Virus record (IMG/VR): IMGVR_UViG_3300042350_001292 | Span: 1 to 31,808 of that record | Direction: 5' to 3' (one strand) | DNA from: a virus | DNA length: 31,808 nucleotides | Shown here: piece by piece, positions 2,465-30,920 of the stretch | Position numbering within the stretch: the first letter of the stretch is position 1 | Layout of the letters: each line of letters opens with the position of its first letter | Position numbers and translations under genes: made by a program | The notes under the pieces: generated by a model | What the model saw: only the letters and a program-made list of their open reading frames with translations | Told to the model about the DNA's origin: nothing | The model's database searches: none

Positions 2465-3508
2465 ATGAAAATAGCTGTAGCAACCATCGCTAAAAACGAA
2501 GAACAGTTCGTAGAACGATGGGCTATATCTTCTGCTGAGGCTGATTACCGGTTTATTTTAGACACGGGTTCAACTGACAAAACCGTTGAGGAAGCAACGC
2601 GATATGGTGTTGATTGCGCAAAAAAAGAGTTTACCCCGTGGCGGTTTGACCACGCCCGCAACCACGCCATAAGTCTCATCCCCAACGACATTGACTATGT
2701 GATATGGCTAGACATGGATGAGATTCTGCAACCAGGCTGGCGACAAGCACTCGAATCCATCCCGCCAAACATCACACGACCCCGCTACAAATATGTATGG
2801 TCATGGAACGATGACGGTACGGAAGGTCTTGTGTATGGTGGCGACAAAATCCACGCCCGCCACGGCTACACATGGAAACACCCAGTCCATGAAGTCCTGA
2901 AACACCAAGGCATAGAAACCCAACATTGGGTTGATGGGTTAGAAATCCATCATCATCCCGACTCGTCAAAGTCTCGAAGCCAATACCTCCCGTTATTAAA
3001 GCTCGCTGTGGAGGAAGACCCTGCGGATGATCGCAACCAGTTCTACTTAGCACGGGAACTGTACTTCCACGCCGATTACGGGCTGGCTCAATACCATTTT
3101 AGCCAACACCTAAAACTATCTCGTTGGAACCCTGAACGGGCTGCTTCGCACCGATACATGGCAAAGATACGACCTGACGCTGCCGAACACCACCTGTACC
3201 TTGCGGTTGCTGAAACTCCGAACCGTAGGGAACCTTGGGTTGAACTAGCTCAGTTGTATTACAACCGGCAGGACTGGGCACGTTGCAGGTCGGCTTGTGA
3301 GATGGCCCTCATTATTACAGAAAAACCATTGGATTATCTTTGTGAGGCTTTTGCTTGGGGCTCTACCCCCTATGACCTTATGGCCTTATCATGCTACAAT
3401 TTAGGCGACTATAAAGCAGCGTTGGATTACGGGGTAAAAGCTTTAGAAATCAGCCCTACAGATGATCGCTTGCGACGTAATTTAGATTGGTATAAGATTG
3501 CAGCATGA
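2465..3508 (+). CDS. Family 2-type glycosyltransferase with C-terminal TPR-like repeats
   Basis: 347 residues. The N-terminus (MKIAVATIAKNEE) is the typical first strand of a GT-A fold. LDTGSTDKT at about 32-40 is the nucleotide-sugar loop, and LDMDE at 82-86 provides the DxD metal site (D83, D85). Residues about 195-335 form TPR-like helix pairs (YNRQDWARCRSACEMAL, YNLGDYKAALDYGVKALEISP). The protein resembles the bacterial and phage group of small GT2 enzymes fused to TPRs. No transmembrane segment is visible, so it should act in the cytoplasm. It has a good ribosome-binding site (AGAGGGG) and lies inside the tail operon between the fibre chaperone and the adaptor. This placement suggests it glycosylates a virion protein or host surface precursors, but the substrate cannot be read from sequence. 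Confidence 0.82.
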   Translation: MKIAVATIAKNEEQFVERWAISSAEADYRFILDTGSTDKTVEEATRYGVDCAKKEFTPWRFDHARNHAISLIPNDIDYVIWLDMDEILQPGWRQALESIPPNITRPRYKYVWSWNDDGTEGLVYGGDKIHARHGYTWKHPVHEVLKHQGIETQHWVDGLEIHHHPDSSKSRSQYLPLLKLAVEEDPADDRNQFYLARELYFHADYGLAQYHFSQHLKLSRWNPERAASHRYMAKIRPDAAEHHLYLAVAETPNRREPWVELAQLYYNRQDWARCRSACEMALIITEKPLDYLCEAFAWGSTPYDLMALSCYNLGDYKAALDYGVKALEISPTDDRLRRNLDWYKIAA

Positions 3509-10125: not shown

Positions 10126-13100
10126 ATGGTAGAGCCAGTACAGCCGAGGCGTTTAAGTACACCCACTCCACCAACTGAACCACCGACAGGTTCGCTTGTC
10201 CCCATTAGGCGACCCGTTTCTGACAAGGCCGCAACAACCTCCAGAACTTCTAAGCAACCTGAATACAGGCCAGGAAGCATTGCTGGTGTTGTCGGTGAAT
10301 TACGGGATGTTGCCGAAAGGGAAATCAAAGCTACTGGCAAGGTTGTACAAAACCTTCCTGCATCAATGACTAAATTCTTTGGTGGACTGGCAATTGACGC
10401 AACATGGGGACTTGGTAGATCAATTCTTTATGGTGGCGGCAAGTCTCCTATCAGTATTGGTTCTGAATACGTACCCAAAACCATGAACGAAACTGCTGAG
10501 TCTTTTGTTAACACAGTAAAAGTTTGGGAAAGAATACCTGAGTATTGGGAAACAATGGAAGCTGGTGGGGCCATCGCTCCGATGCTTATTGAAGATCTTG
10601 GCAACCTAAGTATTCTTGGTAGAGGTGTCCGTGCACCAATCAAAGCCACGGCTGCTACTGCTACTAGACGAGCACAGGGGGCTACTCAAGCGGCGACCTT
10701 AGCGGGGACATCGCAAGAAGCAGCTAAAGCTGCCACTCGTGCCGCTCGTTTGTCAACCATTGCTGATCGTGCAAACAAACTTACCAGCACAAGCAACAGG
10801 GTTATTCACTATACAGACAAGGCTGGCAACTTTCCCTTTATGCCTTATGTATGGGCCGGTAAAGGACTTGGTAAAGCAGTTCGTGAGGGTACCTATGTTG
10901 AAGGTATTGGTGGCTGGGGCGCTAAAGCAGCTCAAGCATATATTTCACAAATAGATGCTTTGCGTCAAGCAGAACCAAACATTGACCCTCAAGATCCACG
11001 ACTAAAAGATCTTACTACAAAAGCCAATCGTAACTTGCGTTTGTCTTTGTCTCATAGCACTCGACAGCAGATTCGTCAAGCTGTCCGTAATGCAAGTCAT
11101 GAGCAAAACGCTGTATCAAAAGCAGTATCTAACATTGCACAAAACCCATTATTGAAAGACGAAATTAACCCAGCAACGGGTGAGGTTTGGGGAGAACTTT
11201 CTCCCGCTGAAAACCAAGCGATTATTTCAGTTCTTAACGGTAGAGCCGCACTGATTAAAGGCTTGTCAGAAAGACTTGGCATCACCCCTGATCGCTTAGC
11301 AGAGCTTGGTAAGTACGACGAAACTCCTGAATACTGGTTATCTCCCGAGGGTGCCACCTTGGCAATGGACTTCATTGAGGGGCGCTTAACTCCTGAACAT
11401 TATGATCGTCTGTCCAATGCTCTTGACCTATTAGCCAAGCAAGTAATCATGAACACTCAACAGGCGGTTGAGGGTTTTGGTCGTAGGAATCTTCTTTCTC
11501 CAGATTATTTAGTACCACTGCCTTTCGTTAACAAGCTTAAACAAGCTGTTATGCAAAGCAAGAACGGTCAGCTCATTGAGCTTTGGTTAGCGTTGGAAGA
11601 AGCAGGGCTGTTGATTCCATTGTCGCAAGCCCTTGAAACCTTTACACCTGAACAACTAAAGCTACGAGAAGAAGCAATGGTTGCGTTTGTTCAGAACCTT
11701 CCTGACGAACTAGCACTTGACCCTTCTATGTATCCAGCAAACATGCGAGAAAACATTGAGTTCTATCGTCGTGTTCGTAGATCTTTAAACCAAAGGGCAA
11801 CCGGTGCTGCGGTCAAAGAACCAATCCCACCAGTTGACGGTAGACCACGAGCCCCCCAGGATCCATTCTTTCCATTTGAGGAAGATGTTGAAGCTGGCAT
11901 TGAGGCACCTACAGGCCCTGAACAATTCCCAATGCCAAGAAGCCGAGGCAAGATCGATGCAGCAGAAACGATGCTTGGCAAGGCTGCACAAAAGATTGAG
12001 AAGCTTCGTGAAAAGGTTATCGAGATTGCAGACAAGATTGCCGACCTAGAAGTAAAGCAAGCCAAGCTTGAAGAGCGTGTACGTAAGTACGACATCGTTG
12101 ACGCTTATCTTGCTGGCATGGAGCCAAAGGCCATTGCTCGTCGTTTCCGCTTATCTATAAATGATGTAAATAAAATTATTCAGAGAAGTCAGCTTGCCCG
12201 CCAAGTATCCTGGGTCAAGTATCTCCAGGAAAGTATGGATGCGTTAACCAAAACTATTGGTGTCAAGCGAGCTGCTTTGCGTGGAGCCGCTGCTGATGCA
12301 GAACTACTTGCTTTGGAAGAGCAGTACGCAACTTTATTGCGAGAAGCTACTAACGCTCAAAAAGCCGTACAAGCAGCAACATCAATGAATGAGATTGCAC
12401 GGCTTGCAGATGAGTCAGCAATTGAAAGATTGACAGAAGAAATGGATCTTGCAGAAGATCAACTTTTAGATCGTGAAACGGAATACGAAGACGCTGGTGG
12501 AGACATCAATGATTTGCGTGTCAATGTTGATCCCAAAGATCCGGAGGTCGGGCCAGTATCTCCAGAAATTGCTGAAACATACCTAAACAATCTAACAGGC
12601 TTGGTCGAAGATATTTCCGTTAAGTTTGGCTCGGATCCTATTGGTCCGGTTCTTTCTCGTTCTGTAGAAGTACTCAACCAGGCTTGGAACCAGGCTATAG
12701 ACTTCTATGAATCGGCTTCTACTGATGCACAAACCCTTGTAGGTGAATTGCGACTGCAACAGTTGAGCGACTTGATTGCTGATGTTACTGAAACAATTAA
12801 CCAGTTAATCACTGAACCACAAGAAGGCGTACTGCTTGAGCAGGCCATTGCCGACACATTGGTTAATTTGGTTAATGATCCAAGAAGTCAACAAATTATT
12901 GCTGGCACCGCACCGTTTGTTTCCCGTTTAGATAGAAACATTAAACCATTGCTTCCAGAAGGCATGGAAATGCCAACAATAGAAGGTGGTCCAAGCAAGT
13001 ATTGGGATCGGGCACAAAAGATAGATGTATTTGATTATACACCAAAATTTGATCCGTCAAATATTACCGGTAGTATATTTAAATTAGTAACGGAAACCTT

Positions 13101-16100
13101 ACAAGAGTCTAATAATTACGATAAAGCAGTAGAATTTGAATATCGCATTCTTAGAGACAGTGTTTCTCACCCTGATGTTACTATTGCATGGGAGCCGACA
13201 GGCGGTAGTATAGATTTTGGAATATCTACTGAAAATTTATTACTAAATATTGTTTTTGATTCGACTGATTCTTTATCCATTGATCAAATTCGAGAAACAT
13301 TAGACGGACTAAAACAAGAAGCTGAAGCAATTGATCTTGAGTCGGAGTTCTTAACAGAACCAGAAGTTTACTTAACAGGGGATGGAAGTTATTACCTAAT
13401 ATCAGAAAGAGGTTCCATAGGCAACTATAAGCAGTTTCTAGAAAGCTACAACCAATTAAATAATATTTTTGATCAGATTTTTAGTCCTGAAGGTGAAGCC
13501 GTTGCTGGCACCGCACCAACTTTTACCGGCGTAAAGTCTATGATGCCGGAAGGTAGTAGTTTTGGCAACTATGGCTCGCCTCGTTTTGATAGATATAATT
13601 ATCTTCCTTCTTATGATCCTATAAATATTACAGGAAGTTTTTTTGAAGATCTAAATACGGTAATTCCTGTAAATACAATTTCAAAAAAAGGACCAGTTAA
13701 ATCAAAATCAATTAACTATGATACCGACAACGCTTCTCGTTCCGCATTTGTCAGGATTGGCAGTGTAAAAGCAAATTCAGATGGTTCTGCATATTTTGAA
13801 TTGTTGCCAAGAAACGACGAAGGTGCTTTTGGTGATTTTACAATATATTTGGATGATCGAAATACTCCAAAAGCGGTATCAGCGTCTGAAATATATAAAG
13901 CATTTGACGAACTTGCGGAAGATATTAAATCTCAAGTAAATAATCCAACAGGCCGATCTAGTAGTGCTGTCGCTGAAATTGATATAGATTTAGACAATGG
14001 TAGTTATATTAAATTAGAAATGTCTATTGACATAACTGATGCCTTAACTGCCCTTGAAATATTTGAACGAGATTTAGCAAAAGTTATTGGCCCTCGTGGT
14101 GGTGTTGAAGCTGTTGCTAGCCCCACTGGTCCTCGCCTTCGTGCCATAGATGAAATGATCGAAGCCAGTGCACCGTTGCCGGATCCCGAGCTAGAAGCTA
14201 TTGCACAGCAAATGGCAGAAGACCCTACGCTTCTTGACGACATGGCACCCGATGTTGAGGATTACCGTTCCGTCACTCAATCAATCGAAGAGCTGCGTAA
14301 CCCAACACCTGAAGCGATTGAAGCTTTCAGGGCTCAAGCTATAGAAGCCGCCCAACAGGAACTCAATACCTCACTAGGACTATTAGAGAATCTTGGTGGA
14401 TTGGTAACTGGAAACAATGTTACATTTAGAATCAATGTACGACGTGGCACCCCTGAATGGGATTGGTGGGAGCAACTTGATCCTGATGTTCGTAGAAACA
14501 TAGCTCGCAAGTATTTTCGTTCAGATAAAATTAAGAGCACTGCAGCCAAAGGTCCACGCACCGTACAAAGCGCTTTCAATATCGACCAAATAGCAGCAGA
14601 TGTCAACCTGGATGTCGAGACATGGGCTGAACAGTTTTTAGAAGGAATACGCCTTCACGAGCAAGCTCAACGGAATCTTAAGGAAACCAAGTCCGGTGAA
14701 ATTGATGCAGAAACATTTGTTCGTGAAAACCCCGAATTACAAGAAGCTATTGCTTATCGAGACAGGTTGGAAGAAGAGGGTGTAGATCAAGCAACGGTAG
14801 ATGCTTACGATAGGGCTCGTGTTGTCCGTGCAGAGCGTCAAGATGCTGACATCCCTAACGATCCTTTAGAGGTACGGCCTGACCCCGTGTTGGTCAATCC
14901 TGGAGTTCGTGCTGCTGCCTACGAAGCTGATGTTTTAGTAGCAATGGCTAAAGAAGCAACCGCTAAAATGCGTAGAGCAGAGTCGGCTAGCAAGAGGCTG
15001 GAGGCTTTCCAGGAATACCTTAGCGACTACAACGCTCGTGTGGAAGCAGAAGGCAATGTTCTTAGACTTAGGAATGTTGCCCGCAATGCTCGCATTTCAT
15101 TAGACAAGAACTTGGAAAGACAAAGGAAGCTTCGTGACAAAGCAAGAGGCGCTAAGGCCGAAATCAAGAATACTGTTGCTCTGCAAAATCGCCTTACTGG
15201 CGACGAGTCTTTTGACCTTATTGGGAATATGCCTGGTGCCGTTCCTTTGGAGATCGCTCTTGAAGGTGGTTACCCATCAGAGCAATTCTCTGTTGACGTT
15301 CCAATAGGACCACGAGATGCTCGTACCGTAGAGCCTGTAACGCTGCAAGGTCCGATGTATCTACCAACAGGTAGACCACGACCATTTACAGGTGGCTTGT
15401 CAACAGAAGTTCTTAAGGCTGGACTCCCGGGTTTCGACAAGTTAACTAGCGAACACTTCCGAGACGGTGACCGCCAAACTATCTTCTCGATTCGTTTGCT
15501 TGCTGATCGTATGGGTAAAGAAGCTCGGATGATGACCGAGAACGAAGCATACCGTGCGATTGTTGCACAGTTTGGAGATACGGCAGTTGACCTTATTGGT
15601 AGAGAAGAATCGTTTGCCTTGTATGAGAAGGCTTACCAAATGGTCTCCAATATGTCCGAGTCTTCTCAAATTGCTTTTGCTGCCAGCGTTCTCGATGAAG
15701 CAGGCGAGCCAGTAGTTAATCTTCTGCCCAAGGTAGACGGTATCGGTGCGTATGCCTCTGGTGTTCCAGATCCCCGTGCAGTGTTTAACCTTGCTCTTAG
15801 GGAACAGTACGGAAGACTCATTGCACAGGAAATGCAATTTAGAGGTTACGCTGCCGTAGACCCATATAAGCGAATTGGTGGAGTTGTACCGTTCGATCAG
15901 ATCACACATGAGTCAATGTTCTTGCCAGTTGGCTTGAGAGAACAGATTGCATTGCGAGAAGCAATTGTTGACCCCAACGGTTTTAACGCATTCCTTAAGG
16001 GCGCTCATAGAGTTACGAGTTTCATGAAGTCCACAACGCTTGTGCTTTCTGTTGCATGGCAGCTTGGTGACCTTTACAGCAACATTGTAATTGCACAAAT

Positions 16101-17373
16101 GACTGGAGTTGATGTTCCAGACATGATTCGTCAGATGAGACGAGTCAAGGTTGAAGAATACGGAACTGGCTGGGCTGGATTCAAAGCAATGATTGACCCA
16201 CGGACAGAAGCTCCCACCCCTACAGCTACTGTTCGTATTGCACAAGAATCCCCTATTCAGGACATTGGCTTTTCTCAGGCAGAACGAGCATTCCTAAGAG
16301 GTATGCCTGTAGAAGAACCGACACCACTGTTGTCAAGAGTTTCACGTGGACGTTTGCAATACCCTGAACGAGTACGGGGTAGAAGTATTACCAAGGTTTC
16401 TTTCAAGATTAACGAAACAATTAACCGTATTTCTCGACACGCCTACTTCCTAGAACTTCTTGAACGCAGATTGCAAGAACAAGGACGAACACTAGACGAG
16501 GTAGCAGCAGACGGATCTTGGCGTACAGACCCACAAACAAAGAAGCTTGTATTCCAGGTAGCTGATACAGCAAACGATTGGCTTGGAGATTTTGCAGACT
16601 TGTCAATGGCCGAGCGTAAATACATGGTTCCATTTTTCCCGTTCTATTCATGGACGAAGCACATTCACAAAGTATTCTTAATGATGGGACGAGAGCACCC
16701 ACAATCATTGCGTTGGTACATCTACTTAGGAACACTGAACTTTGATCCTGACGAAGATCCAATGAACTTGCGTTACGGCAACCCCAGCGTTTTCGGTGGT
16801 GCAGTTAACCTCAACCCGTTCAACCCTTTTGCTGACGTATTTGCCGGCCCTGCAGCGTCATTGATTTCAGAACAGAATATACAGCCAGCTCTTTCACAAC
16901 TAGGTCCAGTACCTCGTTTAGTTGGTGGTGCTTTCGGTTTTGATGTGACTAAAGCTCGCCCACTGCAAAGACCGCCAGGTTCAGGAGAATACACAGAAAG
17001 CGGCTTGGAACAACTTACGGGATTATGGCGTGATCCTAGAGAAGCTCTTGGCTTTGGTTTAATGCAGTTCCCTATTGCTGCACGAGCTCTAAACATTCTT
17101 CCAGGAGAGCGTATCCCTGGAACACAGATTGCACTTGGTCCAGTTACTCGCTACCAAACAGGCGAAGCTCGTCTGAAGCCAGGCACTGAGCGTCGTATTG
17201 AGCGTCCAGGTGGTAGAGCTGCAGCCGTTGGTCGCCTCTTCTCTGTACCTTTGATTCCTTACCAGTCTGATGAGCAGATCGACGAAGTAATGAGGTCTGC
17301 AAAGCGTCGCCTCAAGACAGTCGAAAGATTGAAGAAGCGTCGTGAACGGTACCTTAGAAGCTTGGATGACTAG
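10126..17373 (+). CDS. Giant virion-type (polyvalent/ejected) protein, 2415 residues
   Basis: The longest gene in the window. Residues 1-45 are Pro/Thr-rich and disordered. About 615-655 form a coiled coil, followed at 656-690 by a helix-turn-helix-like segment (LAGMEPKAIARRFRLS...VNKII). Residues 926-1330 hold an internal duplication with visibly A+T-rich coding. Residues 1480-1720 are charged helices. Near the C-terminus, 1967-1995 (TTLVLSVAWQLGDLYSNIVI) and 2160-2186 (ERKYMVPFFPFYSW) resemble hydrophobic and aromatic motifs that recur in very large phage virion proteins. No protease, lysozyme or methylase motif is evident. Size and position suggest an ejectosome or DNA-injection protein analogous to, though not recognisably homologous with, T7 gp16. 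It starts two bases after the upstream stop with a weak ribosome-binding site, and its stop overlaps the GTG start of the resolvase. Confidence 0.75.
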   Translation: MVEPVQPRRLSTPTPPTEPPTGSLVPIRRPVSDKAATTSRTSKQPEYRPGSIAGVVGELRDVAEREIKATGKVVQNLPASMTKFFGGLAIDATWGLGRSILYGGGKSPISIGSEYVPKTMNETAESFVNTVKVWERIPEYWETMEAGGAIAPMLIEDLGNLSILGRGVRAPIKATAATATRRAQGATQAATLAGTSQEAAKAATRAARLSTIADRANKLTSTSNRVIHYTDKAGNFPFMPYVWAGKGLGKAVREGTYVEGIGGWGAKAAQAYISQIDALRQAEPNIDPQDPRLKDLTTKANRNLRLSLSHSTRQQIRQAVRNASHEQNAVSKAVSNIAQNPLLKDEINPATGEVWGELSPAENQAIISVLNGRAALIKGLSERLGITPDRLAELGKYDETPEYWLSPEGATLAMDFIEGRLTPEHYDRLSNALDLLAKQVIMNTQQAVEGFGRRNLLSPDYLVPLPFVNKLKQAVMQSKNGQLIELWLALEEAGLLIPLSQALETFTPEQLKLREEAMVAFVQNLPDELALDPSMYPANMRENIEFYRRVRRSLNQRATGAAVKEPIPPVDGRPRAPQDPFFPFEEDVEAGIEAPTGPEQFPMPRSRGKIDAAETMLGKAAQKIEKLREKVIEIADKIADLEVKQAKLEERVRKYDIVDAYLAGMEPKAIARRFRLSINDVNKIIQRSQLARQVSWVKYLQESMDALTKTIGVKRAALRGAAADAELLALEEQYATLLREATNAQKAVQAATSMNEIARLADESAIERLTEEMDLAEDQLLDRETEYEDAGGDINDLRVNVDPKDPEVGPVSPEIAETYLNNLTGLVEDISVKFGSDPIGPVLSRSVEVLNQAWNQAIDFYESASTDAQTLVGELRLQQLSDLIADVTETINQLITEPQEGVLLEQAIADTLVNLVNDPRSQQIIAGTAPFVSRLDRNIKPLLPEGMEMPTIEGGPSKYWDRAQKIDVFDYTPKFDPSNITGSIFKLVTETLQESNNYDKAVEFEYRILRDSVSHPDVTIAWEPTGGSIDFGISTENLLLNIVFDSTDSLSIDQIRETLDGLKQEAEAIDLESEFLTEPEVYLTGDGSYYLISERGSIGNYKQFLESYNQLNNIFDQIFSPEGEAVAGTAPTFTGVKSMMPEGSSFGNYGSPRFDRYNYLPSYDPINITGSFFEDLNTVIPVNTISKKGPVKSKSINYDTDNASRSAFVRIGSVKANSDGSAYFELLPRNDEGAFGDFTIYLDDRNTPKAVSASEIYKAFDELAEDIKSQVNNPTGRSSSAVAEIDIDLDNGSYIKLEMSIDITDALTALEIFERDLAKVIGPRGGVEAVASPTGPRLRAIDEMIEASAPLPDPELEAIAQQMAEDPTLLDDMAPDVEDYRSVTQSIEELRNPTPEAIEAFRAQAIEAAQQELNTSLGLLENLGGLVTGNNVTFRINVRRGTPEWDWWEQLDPDVRRNIARKYFRSDKIKSTAAKGPRTVQSAFNIDQIAADVNLDVETWAEQFLEGIRLHEQAQRNLKETKSGEIDAETFVRENPELQEAIAYRDRLEEEGVDQATVDAYDRARVVRAERQDADIPNDPLEVRPDPVLVNPGVRAAAYEADVLVAMAKEATAKMRRAESASKRLEAFQEYLSDYNARVEAEGNVLRLRNVARNARISLDKNLERQRKLRDKARGAKAEIKNTVALQNRLTGDESFDLIGNMPGAVPLEIALEGGYPSEQFSVDVPIGPRDARTVEPVTLQGPMYLPTGRPRPFTGGLSTEVLKAGLPGFDKLTSEHFRDGDRQTIFSIRLLADRMGKEARMMTENEAYRAIVAQFGDTAVDLIGREESFALYEKAYQMVSNMSESSQIAFAASVLDEAGEPVVNLLPKVDGIGAYASGVPDPRAVFNLALREQYGRLIAQEMQFRGYAAVDPYKRIGGVVPFDQITHESMFLPVGLREQIALREAIVDPNGFNAFLKGAHRVTSFMKSTTLVLSVAWQLGDLYSNIVIAQMTGVDVPDMIRQMRRVKVEEYGTGWAGFKAMIDPRTEAPTPTATVRIAQESPIQDIGFSQAERAFLRGMPVEEPTPLLSRVSRGRLQYPERVRGRSITKVSFKINETINRISRHAYFLELLERRLQEQGRTLDEVAADGSWRTDPQTKKLVFQVADTANDWLGDFADLSMAERKYMVPFFPFYSWTKHIHKVFLMMGREHPQSLRWYIYLGTLNFDPDEDPMNLRYGNPSVFGGAVNLNPFNPFADVFAGPAASLISEQNIQPALSQLGPVPRLVGGAFGFDVTKARPLQRPPGSGEYTESGLEQLTGLWRDPREALGFGLMQFPIAARALNILPGERIPGTQIALGPVTRYQTGEARLKPGTERRIERPGGRAAAVGRLFSVPLIPYQSDEQIDEVMRSAKRRLKTVERLKKRRERYLRSLDD
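12901..14100 (+). repeat. Tandem domain duplication inside the giant virion gene
   Basis: Two copies of a domain of about 200 residues lie in tandem. Copy 1 begins with AGTAPFVSRLD and continues to PLLPEGMEMP and FDPSNITGSIF. Copy 2 begins with AGTAPTFTG and continues to SMMPEGSSF and YDPINITGSFF. The bases gctggcaccgcacc occur at 12901 and 13504, 603 bases apart (201 codons). The copies otherwise diverge, and both are noticeably A+T-richer than flanking sequence. Confidence 0.7.
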
Positions 17374-17746: not shown

Positions 17747-18676
17747 ATGATCAATCCTGCACAAAAACTAGCGAGCACTAAAGCTGGGGAACACAGCGCT
17801 CGTCGACCACCAGAAAAGAAAAGAAATCTTTTACAGAAGGCTGGTGATTGGCTTGTTGGGGATGCTGACCTAACTAGCCCCCGTGACTGGGCTAAAGGTT
17901 TAGGACAGGCTGCAAACGAAAACCTTATACAGCCCGTCTATCGCACAGCAAGTGGACAAAACTTTAGAACTCTCGTAGCTCCCAGCTCTACACTAAACCA
18001 AAGAATCAACGCTGTTGGTGAAGATGCACTCAATATTGTTTCATTGGTACCTGGTGTGGGTGCTGCCGCTAAAGGTCTTGCGTCTGCAAGGGCAGCAAAA
18101 ACATTAAATCGCGCTGCTGCTTCTACACCGGAATTATTTGAATATGGTGTACATGTTTCTAATCGGCTTACCCCCACTGCCACAAATGTCGGTAAGGACG
18201 TTTTAAAAAACCGTGGTGGTGCTGGCGATGCTCTCCCTGGCTACGCTTACCAATGGAGAATGAGTCCTGGTTATGGTAACAGATTGTCTTTTGATGAATT
18301 AAAAAAACAAGCTACACAAGATGCTACAGATTGGGCAGAAAGATTAGACACATGGCAAATCAATGACCCCTTTGAGGTTTCTGCTTCCTTAACACGAGGG
18401 CCAGCAGAAGGTGTTATTGATGACGCAAACATTGAAAACGTACTTAATCCTTGGGGGCAAAATCGTGGAGCCGCTGTCCCGAATGATTTAGAAATCTTAA
18501 ATCAAGTAAGGCCTGAAAGAGTTTCTTCACCAGAACAATTAGAGAGTTTGCGAAAAGCTATTGAAGAGATGTTAGAAGCAAGGCGTTACGAAATAATGGG
18601 TAATAATAGAAGACTTTATTACTCTAATGAGGCTGACTGGGCAAACTTATTAAGCTCTGTACGAGGTAAAAAATGA
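17747..18676 (+). CDS. Modular virion-type protein A (shared N-module, unique C-terminus)
   Basis: 309 residues. Residues 1-115 form a module shared almost word for word with the next gene: KLASTKAGEHSARRP, then NLIQPVYRTASGQNFRT, then PSSTLNQRINAVGEDALN and a small hydrophobic SLVPGVGAAAKGLASA segment. The C-terminal 190 residues are unrelated by eye to the neighbour and to any family I recognise; they include YAYQWRMSPGYGNR and a charged helical end (SLRKAIEEMLEARRYEI). Its start is three bases after the resolvase stop, and its stop overlaps the next start (ATGA). The fixed head with a variable tail suggests a delivery or packaging module carrying different cargo; function is unknown. Confidence 0.65.
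   Translation: MINPAQKLASTKAGEHSARRPPEKKRNLLQKAGDWLVGDADLTSPRDWAKGLGQAANENLIQPVYRTASGQNFRTLVAPSSTLNQRINAVGEDALNIVSLVPGVGAAAKGLASARAAKTLNRAAASTPELFEYGVHVSNRLTPTATNVGKDVLKNRGGAGDALPGYAYQWRMSPGYGNRLSFDELKKQATQDATDWAERLDTWQINDPFEVSASLTRGPAEGVIDDANIENVLNPWGQNRGAAVPNDLEILNQVRPERVSSPEQLESLRKAIEEMLEARRYEIMGNNRRLYYSNEADWANLLSSVRGKK
17776..18030 (+). repeat. Shared N-module DNA, copy 1
   Basis: DNA encoding the first module of the 309-residue protein. It contains a 30-base block at 17776-17805 and a 35-base block at 17984-18018 that are identical to copy 2, plus a near-identical stretch coding for LIQPVYRTASG. The spacing between blocks differs slightly from copy 2, reflecting small in-frame insertions or deletions. 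Confidence 0.88.
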
Positions 18677-20808
18677 ACCCAGTACAACGTCTTGCTTCCA
18701 CTAAAGCTGGGGAACACAGCGCTCGTCGCCCAATGCAACCGCAGCCCCAAAAAAGAAATCCTTTAAGCGCTTTTGGCAACTGGATGATGGGTGGTGCTAC
18801 TGCTAAAGATTTAACAAGTCCTGCTTGGTGGCTTAAAGGTTTAGCTGACGAAACTAACAAAAACCTTATACAGCCCGTTTATCGCACAGCTAGTGGAACT
18901 AACCTTCGCACTGCCCTTTCTCCTAGCTCTACACTAAACCAAAGAATCAACGCTGTTGGCGAAGATGCACTGAATGTGATCGGTTTAATTCCGGGAGCTG
19001 GGCCTGCTGCTCGTGCTTCCGTAGCTGCTGAACAAGCCGGAGCTAGAGTGTTGGGTAGGGCTAAGGGGATTAAACCCGCTGCACAAACTATAGGCAACAA
19101 ACCTTCCCCATATGTAACTCAAAAAATTCAACAAGCCACAACTGCTCAACAGGAAGCATTAGAAAAAGCAAAAGGGGCACTTAGTGGCAATAGACCTGAA
19201 TACGATTTTGACCGAGATGATTTTATTCGTTTATGGCATACAGGTATGCAGGGGGAACAGCTACCGTTTCCCCTGAAGTCGGTAGAGGATGCATCTAATC
19301 TTCCTACAAGAAGAGGCGGTGGCGGCAGCACAAACCTTTTAGATGGTGGTCTTTATACAACCGATTCTGGCACAACTTCAGCTAGTTATGCCAAGGATAT
19401 TAAAATTCCTCCACCGCATCATCTACCGACAGGCTTGCGAGATAAAGTTGTTGACCTACAAGGAGTACAAACAGACTTCATGTATGATGCTGAAGAAGTC
19501 GCGAGACAAAGCAATATGTACTCTATGGATCTTTTGGATTCTGCAGTTTCTATTGACGATGTTATTCCAAACAAAAATGCATTTGAAACACGTTCACAAA
19601 TACCGCCTTCGTTAATAAAAGCATACGACTCTAGTACAACATACAGAGATTTTTTAAATGCTGTCCCCCCAGAGCTTTATGATGACGCACTAAAACAAAT
19701 TGGTGTTCCGTTAAAATTTGTTTCAGACGAGCCAACAATTTTAAACATGAACACTAGAACTGGAATGCAAAATTTATATGCAGATTCAGACAACCCGCTT
19801 TATTTTATAAGCAATGAGCCTACTACTGTTTTTGGACCAAGACTTCAACAAATTTCAATTAACAAGCGACAGGATCCTATTCGTGGCTACATGCAACAGA
19901 TCGAAGAACAGGAAGCATTATTAAAGGCTGCCCAGCGTCTTTATTTTAAAAAAATAGAGGTAAATCCAGGATCCGCTTTAAACACCAAATATGCTCAAGA
20001 TCACCTTGCCTTGGTTGCTGGCACCGAAAAAAGAATAGCTCAATTACAAGATTGGATTAAACATTACCAACAACCTTCCCCAAACGATGTTTATAAAGTT
20101 TCGCCAGGCTTTACGGGCACTCCAGGACAAAATTATTTTGATTTACCTATAGAACGATCTCTTTACTTTCCACCTGGGCAAAACTCCCCACGACAAAATA
20201 TTACCTCAATCAACAACTTGCCAGCTTTTGATATTGGTGAGATAACCCCGCAGCAAAAAGAATCTTTAAGAACTGCTTTACAAAAATATTTATCTAGTTA
20301 TTCGGTAGAACCAGAAGACATTGACATAGCGCTGGAACAAATAGATAATCTTGGTTTATTGTCTAGAGGGGATCTCGCTGCTAACAATCTTGTTAATTTT
20401 AGAGGGGCTATGAGTAATTCTTGGAATGCTGTAGAAAATATGCGCCCATTAACCGAAACAGTTGACGATAAAGAAAAATTGTATGAATTTTTAAAAAACG
20501 AATTAAATTATGCTTCGATGCCTCACCCTGGTGGAGCTACTACAAAAAACACCCCCCATCAAGCGGTAGTTTTTAGTAGACCAGAGTTGCTGCCACAAGG
20601 ACGATACCTTCCCCCCACAAGTGTTGATTTCAATGCCGCTATGAAACAATACAATGATTCCTTAGTAAGAAAATATTTTAACGAAAGAATGTTGCAGTCT
20701 GGTAATTTTGTGGACATACCACAAACTTCGCCTAACATTACAGCAGCGCAAAGAATGGCCAACAGAATGGCTTTGGCAGGTTCAGCTCAATCAGTTAGGA
20801 ACAGGTAA
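18673..20808 (+). CDS. Modular virion-type protein B with possible ADP-ribosyltransferase-like domain
   Basis: 711 residues. Residues 1-115 repeat the N-module of the preceding gene (RLASTKAGEHSARRP, LIQPVYRTASGTNLRT, STLNQRINAVGEDALN, then LIPGAGPAARA). From about residue 175 the sequence is different and A+T-rich. FIRLWHTGMQ followed 40 residues later by GGLYTTDSGTTSASYAKDI resembles the first two motifs of ADP-ribosyltransferase-like domains found in phage polyvalent proteins. A late HQAVVFSRPELL could correspond to their third strand but lacks an obvious catalytic Glu, so activity is doubtful. The rest is helical and unrecognised. It begins by ATGA overlap with its paralogue and ends in a TAATG overlap with the small gene at 20808. 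Virion or ejected protein is inferred from context. Confidence 0.6.
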   Translation: MNPVQRLASTKAGEHSARRPMQPQPQKRNPLSAFGNWMMGGATAKDLTSPAWWLKGLADETNKNLIQPVYRTASGTNLRTALSPSSTLNQRINAVGEDALNVIGLIPGAGPAARASVAAEQAGARVLGRAKGIKPAAQTIGNKPSPYVTQKIQQATTAQQEALEKAKGALSGNRPEYDFDRDDFIRLWHTGMQGEQLPFPLKSVEDASNLPTRRGGGGSTNLLDGGLYTTDSGTTSASYAKDIKIPPPHHLPTGLRDKVVDLQGVQTDFMYDAEEVARQSNMYSMDLLDSAVSIDDVIPNKNAFETRSQIPPSLIKAYDSSTTYRDFLNAVPPELYDDALKQIGVPLKFVSDEPTILNMNTRTGMQNLYADSDNPLYFISNEPTTVFGPRLQQISINKRQDPIRGYMQQIEEQEALLKAAQRLYFKKIEVNPGSALNTKYAQDHLALVAGTEKRIAQLQDWIKHYQQPSPNDVYKVSPGFTGTPGQNYFDLPIERSLYFPPGQNSPRQNITSINNLPAFDIGEITPQQKESLRTALQKYLSSYSVEPEDIDIALEQIDNLGLLSRGDLAANNLVNFRGAMSNSWNAVENMRPLTETVDDKEKLYEFLKNELNYASMPHPGGATTKNTPHQAVVFSRPELLPQGRYLPPTSVDFNAAMKQYNDSLVRKYFNERMLQSGNFVDIPQTSPNITAAQRMANRMALAGSAQSVRNR
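18699..18971 (+). repeat. Shared N-module DNA, copy 2
   Basis: Second copy of the module, at the start of the 711-residue gene. Identical blocks lie at 18699-18728 and 18925-18959, matching 17776-17805 and 17984-18018. The identity is strong at DNA level, including silent sites, while sequence between the blocks diverges. This suggests recent duplication or ongoing gene conversion. Confidence 0.88.
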
Positions 20809-25618: not shown

Positions 25619-25903
25619 CTAGAACGTGAGCTTTTTTCTTCCATAAACGGTTGTGCCTTCATCGCTATTCCGAGCAACGAACTCGTACCTGTCTCCGTAT
25701 TTCTTTTGAGCGTCACTGGCTCGCTGGTAGCCTGACTGCTTGGCTGAATAGGTGTGGAACACGGCCCACACTCCTTCATTAGCATCCAAGAATGTGACGA
25801 ACTCACTCATCATTGGTAACCCTGCCCTGTAACCATTTCTAGCAGGCGGTGGTGGCTTGATTTCAAACCCAGAGTGTGCGGGCGGTGCTGATTTTTTTTC
25901 CAT
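25619..25903 (-). CDS. Hypothetical protein, 94 residues (minus strand)
   Basis: 94 residues from the ATG at 25903, preceded by AAGGA in the correct place; longer in-frame starts upstream lack a ribosome-binding site. The N-terminus is Pro/Lys-rich and disordered (KSAPPAHSGFEIKPPPPARN), followed by a compact domain: FVTFLDANEGVWAVFHTY, SAKQSGYQRASDAQKKYGDR, then YEFVARNSDEGTTVYGRKK. The pattern 'EFV-x-x-L ... GxWAVF ... YEFVARN-x-x-GTTVYGRK' is characteristic of short phage proteins I have seen without assigned function. It converges with the RecT unit on the terminator at 25535-25571. Confidence 0.68.
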   Translation of the reverse strand: MEKKSAPPAHSGFEIKPPPPARNGYRAGLPMMSEFVTFLDANEGVWAVFHTYSAKQSGYQRASDAQKKYGDRYEFVARNSDEGTTVYGRKKLTF

Positions 25904-25983
25904 ACTTGTTCCTTGTCTTATTTTTGCGCGAGAGAGAGAGTGCGCGTGTTGCCTATGGTACAGCCTAAAAATAAAATAGACAA

Positions 25984-26277
25984 CTACACAGCTGCCCATC
26001 CGTACCGGTGGCTATCTGCCACCGAGATTGAGAACTTTAGTGCGGTCATCACTGCGGGTGCGAAGCCCGTAATCTGATTGTCCATTTTCACTTGGACTGT
26101 GCCACCTCGGAGATCGTCATACTCGGCCTGCACCGCATACATCCCTGACCCCACTCGGGCGATTACCCAACGTCCCGTTCCGTCCTCAATGAAATTCACC
26201 CCTTTGGGTTTTGTTGGTGGTGGGAGAACTTGTGTCAATTCATCGCACAATAATTGTAGGTCGCTACTGGTTGTCAT
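25984..26277 (-). CDS. Hypothetical protein, 97 residues (minus strand)
   Basis: 97 residues from the ATG at 26277. Longer in-frame extensions upstream would run through the divergent promoter and the start of the AAA+ gene and are unlikely. The first 30 residues are helical and Pro-rich (SSDLQLLCDELTQVLPPPTK), followed by beta strands (NFIEDGTGRWVIARVGSGMY, VQAEYDDLRGGTVQVKMDN). There is no clear ribosome-binding site; TACAAT ends seven bases before the ATG, so a leaderless transcript is likely. It lies 80 bases upstream of the 94-residue gene and is probably transcribed with it. No family is recognised. Confidence 0.6.
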   Translation of the reverse strand: MTTSSDLQLLCDELTQVLPPPTKPKGVNFIEDGTGRWVIARVGSGMYAVQAEYDDLRGGTVQVKMDNQITGFAPAVMTALKFSISVADSHRYGWAAV

Positions 26278-26345: not shown

Positions 26346-27107
26346 ATGGAAACTTACAATTGTTGGGATGACCTGAACGCAGCATTAGAAGCTGGTGCGG
26401 ATCGAGTACTCCTTTACGGCAAGCCAGGTACGGGAAAAACGCACTTCGCTTTGACTAAGCATTTGGATTGGTTCGGGCGCACTCGTAATGCGTACCGTGT
26501 GTTGTGTTCACCTGACATGACCACCGCCGACATTGACGGACTGTGGAAGCCGTCCAAGGATGAATGGAACTTCGTAACGGGTTCCGCATTGCGAGCATGG
26601 GCTCACGGTGACCGCCTCATCTTGGATGAACTTGACCAAGCCTCGGGCGATGTCCTCACGGCATTACTTCTCATCTGTGACAGTGACGGCAGTGCGGTGC
26701 GTGAGCACCCTGAAACTGGCGAAAGAATGTCGCCAAAGTCCGGATTTGAGATCATTGCGACTACCAACGCTGAACGCCTTAGCGATTTGCCTGCGAACCT
26801 CATGGACAGATTTCCTGTCCGTATTGACATCAACGAAGTGAACCCTGAAGCGATAGCGAAACTTCCTGACAGTTTGCAACATGTCGCTCGCCAGTACGCC
26901 AATAGAAGCACTGACCGCTATTCGCTCCGTTCATTCTTTGCGTTTGACAAGATGAGCAAGAAACTCGGTATTGAGACTGCCTCACGCCTTGTGTTCGGCA
27001 AGCATGAAGGCGCTGCGATTGCACAAGCACTGAAAATGGGCGATGTGCTCGGTACTGAAATGGCAAGTAGCGCACCTACCACATACCACTCGGTAGGTGA
27101 GAAATAA
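26346..27107 (+). CDS. MoxR/CobS-like AAA+ ATPase
   Basis: 253 residues from ATG 26346, chosen over an in-frame TTG at 26286 that overlaps the promoter; a GAGAGAGAGAG ribosome-binding tract precedes it. Walker A is YGKPGTGKTHFA (G25 to T32), Walker B is RLILDELDQ (D94, E95), sensor 1 is ATTN (N141), and DRFPVRIDI carries the likely arginine finger. CSPDMTTADIDGLWKP fits the substrate loop of the AAA_5/MoxR group. MoxR-type ATPases act with VWA-domain partners to remodel target proteins or insert metal ions; the next gene encodes such a VWA partner, in a TAATG overlap. CobS-type ATPases are known in large marine phages. The client here is unknown. Confidence 0.85.
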   Translation: METYNCWDDLNAALEAGADRVLLYGKPGTGKTHFALTKHLDWFGRTRNAYRVLCSPDMTTADIDGLWKPSKDEWNFVTGSALRAWAHGDRLILDELDQASGDVLTALLLICDSDGSAVREHPETGERMSPKSGFEIIATTNAERLSDLPANLMDRFPVRIDINEVNPEAIAKLPDSLQHVARQYANRSTDRYSLRSFFAFDKMSKKLGIETASRLVFGKHEGAAIAQALKMGDVLGTEMASSAPTTYHSVGEK

Positions 27108-28567
27108 TGAAGGAGAGAATTGTTGCCCCTGAATGGGTGGTGGCTCAACGGGCTGACCGTGAACTCATGGACAACTTGCAGGGGGGGTGGGGGATTTCCT
27201 CTGCCCCTCTTCTGCGTGGTGCGTCCTTTACTGATTTTGGACAGTCTCACATGGCTATTCCTACTGGAGACAGTGACGCTGAAAAGGCTGTAAGGCTTCA
27301 TGAACTCATCCATGCTCGGGTTAGTCCGTCCAGTCTCCCTAACAGTTTGTGTGAGCAGTTAGGGGTAAGCCTGAACGCTGTTCGGATTGCTGAAGAAGTG
27401 CGAGTGAACCTGATAGGGCGCATGATTGGCAGGCGTACTGAAGGTATCGGAGACACACGTTATTTAGCCGATGGATCCGAGCTGTCTGTGTGTAAGAACA
27501 TCGTTGAGCGTGGTTCATGGAATGACGCTGTGAGTATGTTCTTTGGGACATACCACACGGATGTCCATAAGAAGGTTGTTCGCGCACTCGGCAAGAATGA
27601 AGATTGGAAAAAGGCATTTCGTGTCATCACCAAGAAGTTGCGAAAGAATGTCAATTGGCACTTTGAGAAAAGTGGCATGCAGTATTGGATTTCATACACC
27701 AACCCCGAGCAATTTGACTGGGTTGCAGACGGTAAGAGTGGGCGTATTCAGCGTGAACTAATACCAATGGGCTTCACAAAATTCACGATCCCAACGGCCA
27801 TGATTATTGACGACATTCTCACTACTTCACCACAAGACTTCGTGGAAGAAAAGGAGCGTGTAAAAACCAACTACACGGGTGATTATGTGTCGGATGAGAA
27901 CCATTGGGCGGAACTTCGATTTGGTATCACAAGCCTGACCGAGACGACTGGACGCTTCATCGGTAGGCGCAAGCGCCCTGCGATGACGGGTAAATACCCT
28001 TCACGCCCTGACCGTCTACTCACTGACCCTGAACGGCGTATCTTCCGTGAGGTCACCAAGGGTGGCAATGCGGTGATTGTCTTTGACTGTTCGGGTTCTA
28101 TGGGTGTATCTCATAGCACTGTTCGCAACGCTGTGGAGAAGTTTGCAGGGGCGACTATTGCTGTGTACTCAAACTCATCAAGCAGTATGGCTAATGCGTG
28201 GGTCGTGGCTCGCAATGGACGGATGATTAGCGAAGCAGACTTCCGAGAGTTGCCACTCAATAGCGGTAACGGTGTGGACGCACCCATTTTGCGGTGGGCT
28301 CTGAAGCAGCGCCGAACTCCTAAGGATTTTGTTCTTTGGGTGTCTGACGGTTATGCGACTGGCGAGGATGACTACGGCGATGAGGCTCTAATCCGAGAGT
28401 GCGCTGTGCTATCGCAACGCAATAACATCGTTGGCGTGGACACCTGCGAAGAAGCTCTCGATCTGCTTGCGGACATGAAGCGCACCCAACAAGTACCACG
28501 CAATAAGTACTGTGAACTAATCACCAAGGAACTAGCAAAGAAAGAAAATGACCAATGGAAAAAGTAG
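27107..28567 (+). CDS. VWA-domain protein with N-terminal HEXXH metallopeptidase-like motif
   Basis: 486 residues. Residues 60-100 contain LHELIHARVSP with the zinc-type motif H65-E66-x-x-H69 and, some 25 residues later, AEEVRVN, a plausible third ligand. This layout resembles the putative metallopeptidase region found with VWA domains in some bacterial MoxR-linked proteins. The C-terminal VWA domain starts at about residue 320 with VIVFDCSGSMG, giving a complete MIDAS (D327, S329, S331), then GVDAPILRWAL and VLWVSDGYATGEDDYGDE. It is the partner expected for the upstream AAA+ ATPase (TAATG overlap). Together they could form a metal- or ATP-driven remodelling or processing machine. Whether the HEXXH is catalytic is not known. 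Confidence 0.82.
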   Translation: MKERIVAPEWVVAQRADRELMDNLQGGWGISSAPLLRGASFTDFGQSHMAIPTGDSDAEKAVRLHELIHARVSPSSLPNSLCEQLGVSLNAVRIAEEVRVNLIGRMIGRRTEGIGDTRYLADGSELSVCKNIVERGSWNDAVSMFFGTYHTDVHKKVVRALGKNEDWKKAFRVITKKLRKNVNWHFEKSGMQYWISYTNPEQFDWVADGKSGRIQRELIPMGFTKFTIPTAMIIDDILTTSPQDFVEEKERVKTNYTGDYVSDENHWAELRFGITSLTETTGRFIGRRKRPAMTGKYPSRPDRLLTDPERRIFREVTKGGNAVIVFDCSGSMGVSHSTVRNAVEKFAGATIAVYSNSSSSMANAWVVARNGRMISEADFRELPLNSGNGVDAPILRWALKQRRTPKDFVLWVSDGYATGEDDYGDEALIRECAVLSQRNNIVGVDTCEEALDLLADMKRTQQVPRNKYCELITKELAKKENDQWKK

Positions 28568-29304
28568 AAGGATTACAGCGCCCTATGGGGCTACTTCAGA
28601 ACTGGCTGGAGACATACGGCTATGACAAGCACCGTGTCACTGGCGAGGACTGTATGGCTATGTGCTATCTGTCCACGCAAAGTTATGACGAGGACGGTGA
28701 GGCAACCGATGAATGGCACTTAGTTGGTATCAACCGTGAGCCTTACAATGCTTTAGTTGAGGGATTTCAGGACATCATGAAAATGCTTCTAAATGAGTAC
28801 GGGAAGGGTCGTTTGGCACTCAACATCAACGGCATAGTGCTCGTGAGTCACGGCGCTGGGCGTTACATGTTCGTCAATGAGGATGAGGAAGAAGTGTCGT
28901 ATGAGGACATGACCGAGGAGATGAGAGAGAGTGTGAGTGAGAGTGGTGTGTTCGCAGGGACTCGCCCTGTACGTATCATCAACACGATCACGAGCTCCGG
29001 ACTCGCGGCCGAAATTGCTACCTTTGACGAGAACGGTGAACCCGATGTGCAGTATGTGGAGCACTGGACGGGCTCGGGTGAAATGCCTAAGGCAAGTGGC
29101 ATGGTGGATGAGGCACTAATGAGCCTTATGACTTTCTCATTGCTGTGTCGTCAAGTGGTGAGCAATGACTTACCTATGAACGCTCGGAGCCTGCTGGAAG
29201 TTGCTATGGAAGGCGAGACAGATGAGAGGGTCATGTCCTATGTGCTGAAGATTGTAAGCATGGCGTTGGATGTTGGATTGTTGGAAAGTGAGGATTTGAC
29301 CTAA
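28555..29304 (+). CDS. Acidic hypothetical partner of the AAA+/VWA pair
   Basis: 249 residues, very acidic. It starts inside the last 13 bases of the VWA gene, so translation is coupled and the three proteins are likely made in concert. Residues about 100-145 include NEDEEEVSYEDMTEEMRESV; the C-terminus is helical (ALMSLMTFSLLCRQVVSNDL, then SLLEVAMEGETDERVMSYVL). A middle stretch (DEWHLVGINREPYNALVEGF) looks globular alpha/beta. No known family is recognised. It could be the substrate, adaptor or regulator of the AAA+/VWA unit. The unit ends with the strong terminator at 29359. Confidence 0.62.
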   Translation: MEKVEGLQRPMGLLQNWLETYGYDKHRVTGEDCMAMCYLSTQSYDEDGEATDEWHLVGINREPYNALVEGFQDIMKMLLNEYGKGRLALNINGIVLVSHGAGRYMFVNEDEEEVSYEDMTEEMRESVSESGVFAGTRPVRIINTITSSGLAAEIATFDENGEPDVQYVEHWTGSGEMPKASGMVDEALMSLMTFSLLCRQVVSNDLPMNARSLLEVAMEGETDERVMSYVLKIVSMALDVGLLESEDLT

Positions 29305-29358
29305 TCCCCTGTATCGTTTGGGTGGTCGGGTTCTTACCCCTTTCTCCCCGACATAGCG

Positions 29359-29398
29359 AAGCCTCACCGAGTATCACGGCTACTTGGTGGGGCTTTTG
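29359..29398 (+). terminator. Intrinsic terminator after the AAA+/VWA operon
   Basis: Ten-base stem AAGCCTCACC (29359-29368) and GGTGGGGCTT (29386-29395), one T-G wobble, a 17-base loop, and a short T-run. It lies about 55 bases after the 249-residue gene's stop. Confidence 0.8.
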
Positions 29399-29405
29399 CT
29401 ATTGT
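29397..29405 (+). promoter_or_regulatory. Possible extended -10 promoter (TG-C-TATTGT)
   Basis: TGC followed by TATTGT sits directly after the terminator and about 50 bases before ATG 29454. It matches the extended -10 pattern found at three other unit starts but has only four of six consensus bases, so it is tentative. Confidence 0.3.
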
Positions 29406-30326: not shown

Positions 30327-30920
30327 ATGCCAACAACACTGGAACAACTAGCCGATGACCTCGGGACGGTCATCCCGATACCACCGTCAGAGGGGGGACA
30401 ATTTCCCTCTATTTATGAATTCACGGGTGGAGCATGGGAAGAACACTCCCACTGTATTTATGATGTGTACGACCTTCTAAGCGATTACGGCCGTAACCAC
30501 ATCGCAAGGACTCAACCACTGGCACAACCTGACGCCTTCGTGTTGGTCACTAGCGGATACGCCGCACCACTGGAGAACGGCGAGCCAGTAGGCGCACCTT
30601 CGGAACATCCACAGCGTAGGCGTGTTTCTTTGTTCGTTCTTACTTTGGCGAACGGTGGACAGTTGTCTCGGCTGGTGTTTCATGACACGGGCGAACAAGT
30701 GACCGAGAAAAACACCTACTCAGGCTCACTTGCTGAGTGCATTGACCTCGCTGGCGCTTTCTTGTGGGGTGCTCGCTTCTTGCGTGGACTGTCTGACTCG
30801 GCGCTCCAAGATGACGAGGACGACAACTCGGACGAGGCTTTGAGGTCTCGCTTGGGTCGTCTCATCCGTGTTCGCTCATTCTTTGACGATGAGCCCTCAC
30901 TTCGCTTTGAGGAGAATTGA
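30327..30920 (+). CDS. Hypothetical protein, 197 residues
   Basis: 197 residues from ATG 30327, which has AAAGGGG six bases upstream. Earlier in-frame starts would run back through the promoter and GT-rich leader and are rejected. The N-terminus is helical (TTLEQLADDLGTVIPIPP), followed by a beta-rich globular part (FVLVTSGYAAPLENGEPVG; RRVSLFVLTLANGGQLSRLV; FHDTGEQVTEKNTYSG). The C-terminus is highly acidic (SALQDDEDDNSDEALRSRLG) and then basic. No family is recognised. It ends one base before the next gene, so the two form an operon closed by the terminator at 31217. Confidence 0.62.
   Translation: MPTTLEQLADDLGTVIPIPPSEGGQFPSIYEFTGGAWEEHSHCIYDVYDLLSDYGRNHIARTQPLAQPDAFVLVTSGYAAPLENGEPVGAPSEHPQRRRVSLFVLTLANGGQLSRLVFHDTGEQVTEKNTYSGSLAECIDLAGAFLWGARFLRGLSDSALQDDEDDNSDEALRSRLGRLIRVRSFFDDEPSLRFEEN

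Follow-up and report, generated by a model that had tools for sequence, protein, structure and literature searches.

What might a small phage do with a motor ATPase, a partner protein that carries a metallopeptidase-like motif, and a strongly acidic third protein, all encoded in one compact block? The question is raised by IMG/VR virus record IMGVR_UViG_3300042350_001292, a complete contig of 31,808 bases (hereafter the window), in which a first-pass annotation had singled out a three-gene unit as a possible undescribed system. The unit (coordinates in Table 1) consists of a MoxR-type AAA+ gene, a gene for a protein with both an HEXXH motif and a VWA domain, and the acidic gene. The observation largely holds: the unit is real and conserved. 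I hold, with somewhat better than even confidence, that it is a divergent and compact phage member of the machines that join a MoxR/CobS-like AAA+ ATPase to a zincin-VWA (CobT-like) protein, supplied with a clade-specific third protein and working as proposed below.

Open reading frame calls place the three genes where they had been reported, tightly packed on the plus strand. The first two overlap by 1 nt, and the coupling of the second to the third, described earlier as 13 bases, is an overlap of 13 nt (28555-28567). The MoxR-type identity of the first protein was borne out by a Pfam match (PF07728 AAA_5, E=2.3e-16, 60.5 bits against a cut-off of 22) and by PHROG matches, phrog_16448 (E=9.9e-33) and the CobS family phrog_249 (E=2e-13). 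Its Walker A (GxPGTGKT, residues 25-32), Walker B (LILDELD, 91-97), sensor-1-like TTN (139-141) and DRF (154-156) motifs are all invariant among the relatives described below, in keeping with the Walker and sensor motifs first read from the sequence. In a profile search, the nearest solved relatives are Midasin (1e-17) and NorQ (3e-6). The protein scored 15.5 bits, below the cut-off of 27, with the model for bpMoxR ternary conflict systems (PF20030), and the PADLOC defence models gave short P-loop matches only to it and no match to the VWA or third protein.

The second protein has both of the motifs claimed for it, H65-E-x-x-H69 and D327-C-S-G-S331, at just those residues. In an alignment of 10 phage VWA proteins, with identity to that of the window down to 29%, the residues H65, E66, H69, A70, S73, P74, E96, E97, R99, N101, D327, S329, G330, S331 and D414 are invariant. 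The X positions of HEXXH vary (HELIH, HEMVH, HEMIH, HELVH, HELLH, HELAH), and since H65, E66, H69, E96, E97, R99 and N101 stay fixed while they do so, the motif is more than a chance occurrence. An EExR element starts 27 residues after the second His, and the two together make up a zincin-type signature, as judged from sequence and predicted helices: the predicted model has HEXXH in helix 57-72 and EExR in the neighbouring helix 89-110, a zincin-like arrangement. The two His, the Glu of HEXXH, E96 and E97 are also invariant across phage clade A, contig L027 and two proteins from bacterial metagenome-assembled genomes (MAGs). The pairing of an AAA+ ATPase with a VWA protein bearing a zincin-type motif is thus supported both by motifs and by conservation in relatives.

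Database searches with the second protein matched phrog_33218 over residues 260-455 (E=2.6e-34), and a structure search of viral models gave a full-length match to an unnamed viral protein (E=3.6e-19) and another to a phage protein named CobT VWA domain (E=2.8e-6). No family was matched in the Pfam search, VWA models included, and nothing in a profile search against PDB sequences. Six records (the window and relatives) had no match at E<=1 to CobT (PF06213), although a Caulobacter control did, nor was the putative metallopeptidase DUF2201_N (PF13203) matched at that threshold in 6 records, with controls matched in three genomes.

Within the VWA domain, the DxSxS element and the later Asp of the metal-ion-dependent adhesion site (MIDAS) are kept (D327, S329, S331, D414). 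The VWA core is preceded by a finger-like stretch, RRKRPAMTGKYPSRPDRLLTDPERRIFRE, which ranks among the most conserved parts of the protein and falls in a region of low predicted local distance difference test score (pLDDT; residues 282-320). The zincin-like region is conserved less well than the finger and VWA regions. By eye only, GKYPSRPDRLLTDPERRIF resembles the finger tip of NorD (GRxLL/IxxxxT-like, before the VWA domain). That finger is inserted in the NorQ pore, at the equivalent place before the VWA domain, in the part of PMC13036017 that describes it, and RRKRPAMTGKYPSRPDRLLTDPERRIFRE may be its equivalent.

Used as query against viral contigs, the AAA+ protein brought out seven close relatives, and alignment scans added further ones; a single-sequence scan with the VWA protein retrieved no relative, where the AAA+ query had retrieved the clade. 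The clade comprises 11 contigs (L002-L008, L017-L019 and L036), some of them near-duplicates, representing about eight lineages. The gene order is the same in all 11, with overlaps or short gaps between genes, and the AAA+ gene is present wherever the contig extends to its site. Co-occurrence of the three genes in other phages, proposed earlier as a check, was found, the third gene being present in every one of these contigs. The AAA+ protein is the most conserved of the three (66-74% identity to relatives, as against 42-56% for the VWA protein and 26-39% for the third; 68-77% in another comparison with relatives), and omega values of 0.06-0.15 for all three genes in close pairs indicate purifying selection.

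The relatives are phages of about 42-44 kb, not the large marine phages that had been suggested as the setting. The genome G001 (43,355 bases) is probably complete, because it has a 99-base end repeat, and its products include a terminase, a P22-like portal, a major head protein and a WhiB protein, the last regarded as a mark of actinobacterial phages (PMC6802176). The phage bearing the window's unit is a small actinobacterial phage. Throughout the clade, the unit is placed after RusA-like, phosphoesterase and RecT-like genes. Searches of cultured phages by tblastn found no match for the VWA or third protein of the window, nor for the VWA proteins of contigs L026 and L027.

The third protein is as acidic as had been claimed, with 46 Asp and Glu residues against 17 Lys and Arg. 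It matched no family in Pfam or PHROG. Its predicted structure is an alpha/beta fold (pLDDT 77.7), for which Foldseek found weak matches only in PDB. A search with a model of the protein found it in 8 of 8 clade records and in none of 5 records of other viral groups. Because of this obligate linkage and its fast divergence, its probable role is that of a phage-specific adaptor, regulator or client. A separate fast-evolving protein of no known family, encoded downstream (dn3, window 30333-30920), with the pattern VLVTSGYAAP...PSEHPxRRRV and equivalents kept in the clade (in L002, L004, L007 and L018), is superficially like it, but a relationship between the two is rejected for now (hhalign probability 1.9%).

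Seven other viral contigs (L020-L026) form a sister clade in which the AAA+ and VWA genes are adjacent, as in the window, and the proteins are 39-40% identical to its AAA+ protein and 35-41% to its VWA half, but the VWA protein, of family phrog_33218, has neither HEXXH nor EExR. The next gene encodes a different or unrecognisably diverged protein in comparison with the window's third (hhalign probability 0.4%, kinship rejected for now), and the terminase gene, in the contigs read that far, comes 2-3 kb after the pair. Since this clade keeps the AAA+ and VWA proteins without HEXXH, the action of motor on VWA protein seems to be the core of the machine and the zinc site an optional part.

Relatives are found in bacteria as well. 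A scan of bacterial genomes found the AAA+/HEXXH-VWA pair on two actinobacterial MAG contigs, L047 and L048 (the latter labelled Ilumatobacteraceae). Bacterial genes come next after the pair in L047; the nearest of them matches the peptide-binding chaperone family TY-Chap1 weakly, below cut-off. One actinobacterial family, which shares its order with L047, has the VWA protein in 91 of 172 genomes, in some of them deep within contigs of 100 kb to more than 1 Mb; the family to which L048 belongs has a related version in 10 of 173. All 48 chromosomal loci examined (L065-L112) keep HEXXH, and nearly all keep EExRVN/IN. Both genes, their order and HEXXH are as in the window, but no third gene of the window's family was found and the pair occupies a fixed site: wherever there is enough flank (46 loci), the order is AAA-VWA-LysM-nrdR-PIG-L, with dinB next in all but L087, whose contig ends first (45/46). 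The gene lexA is divergent and less than 600 bp from the AAA gene in 11 loci and 5.5 kb off in one. The identities of LexA, LysM, NrdR and DinB come from Pfam searches of example loci, that of LysM being marginal. The same model of the third protein that worked on phage records found no homologue in the two actinobacterial families, where it had no positive control.

These 46 loci also have, between the VWA and LysM genes, at least two exact copies of GAACN4GTTC, the LexA operator of actinobacteria; over all chromosomal loci there are 123 such boxes, as compared to 4 after shuffling. As the tandem boxes show, the operon that follows the chromosomal pair is under LexA control. Control of the pair in general was considered and rejected: only the loci with lexA as a neighbour have a box ahead of the AAA+ gene, and for these alone do the boxes suggest that the pair itself is regulated. 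For the phage unit, direct control by LexA was likewise rejected, no GAACN4GTTC being found upstream of the AAA+ gene in the window or its phage relatives. In a tree (midpoint root, long branches), the phage and chromosomal clades are each supported and are sisters, and so the phage pair is not nested among the chromosomal ones. The literature searched offered no description of the chromosomal arrangement.

How does the unit compare with known systems? It cannot be called undescribed in kind, since such systems have been reported before: as a MoxR-vWA pair of group 2.2 jumbo phages whose vWA protein has a metallopeptidase fused at its N-terminus (Iyer et al. 2021, PMC7824862), and as CobST pairs of viruses that infect 8 host orders, the cobT of cyanophages usually annotated as a peptidase (PMC8651126). 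The jumbo-phage genes, compared by description only (ASV44729.1/ASV44728.2), adjoin as in the window, but the phages are jumbo instead of small, and the passages describing the pair do not mention an acidic third gene. The pairs of cyanophages Syn30 (CPRG_00158/00160) and S-CREM2 (gp56/gp55) represent the viral CobST system described for cyanophages and haloarchaeal viruses in PMC8651126. Like the window, they couple a CobS-like AAA+ protein with an HEXXH...(L/I)E-D-x-R-I-E...DxSxS protein, but the latter is larger (681-721 amino acids), the spacing is 21-25, and an acidic third gene of the window's family is missing. Over the whole length, similarity to the window's VWA protein is below significance; the zincin part of S-CREM2 gp55 alone gives a match, a weak one.

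Closer in host are the Gordonia phages Sixama (gp117/116/115) and GMA2 (Orf48-45) and Actinomycetia phage DSL-LC01, all of actinobacterial hosts, which encode an AAA+ protein and, within a few genes, an HEXXH-27-EExR...DxSxS protein; Sixama and GMA2 also have a WhiB gene immediately upstream. These are phages of 103-129 kb with larger proteins, and in the Gordonia phages the two genes are separated by others. NorQ/NorD (PMC9976466, PMC13036017) likewise joins a MoxR AAA+ protein, the NorQ matched in the profile search above, to a VWA partner, but it serves metal insertion into nitric oxide reductase, and the portions of these papers that treat NorD report no HEXXH peptidase.

The best reading is that the unit encodes a protein remodeller driven by ATP and equipped with a zinc-site domain. 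The AAA+ protein, to go by its family, would form a ring, and the conserved stretch before the VWA domain would sit in its pore, like the NorD finger in NorQ. ATP hydrolysis may then turn or pull the VWA protein, a client being held at its metal site. The client would thereby be brought to the N-terminal HEXXH...E zinc site, or that site be opened, for cleavage or processing. The acidic protein most likely serves as an adaptor, a regulator or a client peculiar to these phages.

Several observations weigh against this reading. The structure prediction, which the first-pass annotation had proposed as a check, brings HEXXH and EExR into neighbouring helices but is mediocre as a whole (mean pLDDT 74, predicted template modelling score 0.54). 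The structure search against PDB gave nothing below E=0.001 and weak VWA matches only. The MIDAS, once described as complete, lacks its usual intermediate Thr, all phage relatives having GNG(V/I)D or GNCID in the segment where it would stand. Outside the motif, the comparison of profiles with the Gordonia phage proteins lacks significance. Finally, the sister clade without HEXXH implies that peptidase activity is not required in every such machine.

As to what the remodeller serves, its phage setting after the RusA/RecT block and its bacterial relatives beside SOS genes speak, if weakly, for DNA metabolism, damage response or takeover rather than for a purely structural role. A fuller proposal, tentative and rather unlikely as it stands, is that the chromosomal machine of small-genome actinobacteria serves a LexA-centred damage response, and that phages carry a version whose acidic third protein redirects or restrains it during infection.

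Of the rival explanations, one would make the unit a chaperone and peptidase that assemble and trim structural proteins of the virion. This was proposed for the jumbo-phage pair as virion assembly with peptide processing (PMC7824862), and the position of the sister clade's pair close to terminase and the presence of very large unassigned proteins in the window phage (2415 amino acids) that could require processing are consistent with it. I consider it unlikely, in that the clade's unit follows recombination-type genes (RusA, phosphoesterase, RecT-like), small genes and WhiB, spanning about 6 kb, separate it from the terminase, portal and capsid genes, and the chromosomal relatives lie outside prophages in the loci examined. 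A second rival, that of a pure remodeller whose N-terminal part is a binding domain with HEXXH structural or a relic, gains from the sister clade that does without the motif and from the weaker conservation of the zincin-like region; it appears quite improbable, given the invariance of H, E, H, E96 and E97 in clade A, L027 and the two MAG proteins and the retention of HEXXH, catalytic-type Glu included, in 48 of 48 chromosomal proteins.

A last possibility is a metal-chelatase helper, in which the pair, in the manner of CobST, would assist the host's CobN in cobalt insertion and increase the B12 available for nucleotide synthesis, with HEXXH binding metal but not cutting protein; the chromosomal relatives adjoin nrdR, regulator of ribonucleotide reductase, but nrdR beside lexA and a LysM gene is a common actinobacterial order also without the pair. 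Such a role, proposed for viral CobST with host CobN (PMC8651126) and compatible with the CobS-type PHROG match, is very doubtful, as CobT was not matched in a search that succeeds in Caulobacter and the third gene is unlike CobN in size or family.

The claims about transcription of the unit fared unequally. A hairpin 3' of the third gene is real as a structure and terminator-like (folded stretch 29340-29405, -30.7 kcal/mol, z -5.6), and it was not among the matches of a pattern scan for terminators. The dedicated promoter is weakly founded: sigma-70-like sites in the unit's region number 7, against 3.5 +/- 1.8 in shuffles, a count that chance could about account for.

Table 1. Features of the three-gene unit and its flanks in the window (aa, amino acids; pI, isoelectric point)
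Feature	Coordinates	Strand	Basis or remark
Next gene beyond the divergent one	25619-25999	-	homologues at equivalent place in relatives
Small divergent gene upstream of unit	25984..26277	-	start inferred at internal ATG
MoxR/CobS-like AAA+ ATPase, 253 aa	26346..27107	+	Pfam, PHROG, motifs
HEXXH-VWA protein, 486 aa; zincin-like at the N-terminus, then a finger-like stretch, with VWA at the C-terminus	27107..28567	+	
HEXXH motif, H65-E66-L-I-H69	27299..27313	+	conservation, predicted helix 57-72
E96-E97-V-R99-V-N101, candidate third metal ligand and supporting residues	27392..27409	+	
Candidate finger RRKRPAMTGKYPSRPDRLLTDPERRIFRE, residues 287-315	27965..28051	+	conservation, low pLDDT
MIDAS motif 1, D327-C-S329-G-S331	28085..28099	+	invariant
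MIDAS third-motif Asp, D414	28346..28348	+	invariant
Acidic third protein, 249 aa, pI 4.25	28555..29304	+	kept in 11/11 clade contigs
Terminator-like hairpin 3' of third gene	29351..29403 (approximate ends)	+	folding

Elsewhere in the window, a glycosyltransferase-like gene (2465-3508; phrog_13126, E=2e-111) lies amid tail genes, with a homologue in G004 and none seen at the equivalent place in G001. The 2415-amino-acid protein (10126-17373) has no PHROG match and differs in size among relatives. The adjacent genes at 17747-18676 and 18673-20808 have similar N-termini, an apparent duplication whose copy number and length differ among relatives. The gene at 24875-25480 matches phrog_3704 (E=9e-36), labelled 'ferredoxin', but has no Pfam match, and the label looks doubtful.

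What is new, then, is a compact version of the machine in WhiB-encoding phages of 42-44 kb, with a fast-evolving third protein tied to the clade, and, beyond it, a sister viral clade without HEXXH and chromosomal relatives beside SOS genes. Phage MoxR/CobST pairs are widespread, and the explanations offered for them compete: one paper (PMC8651126) has them serve cobalamin synthesis, the other (PMC7824862) virion assembly together with peptide processing. The present clade is compact, its third protein is obligate, a sister clade without HEXXH exists in nature, and chromosomal relatives stand in a fixed SOS setting; together these make motor, zinc site and adaptor separable experimentally. They point to DNA-damage biology as a third explanation, one raised in neither paper's passages on the function of these pairs.

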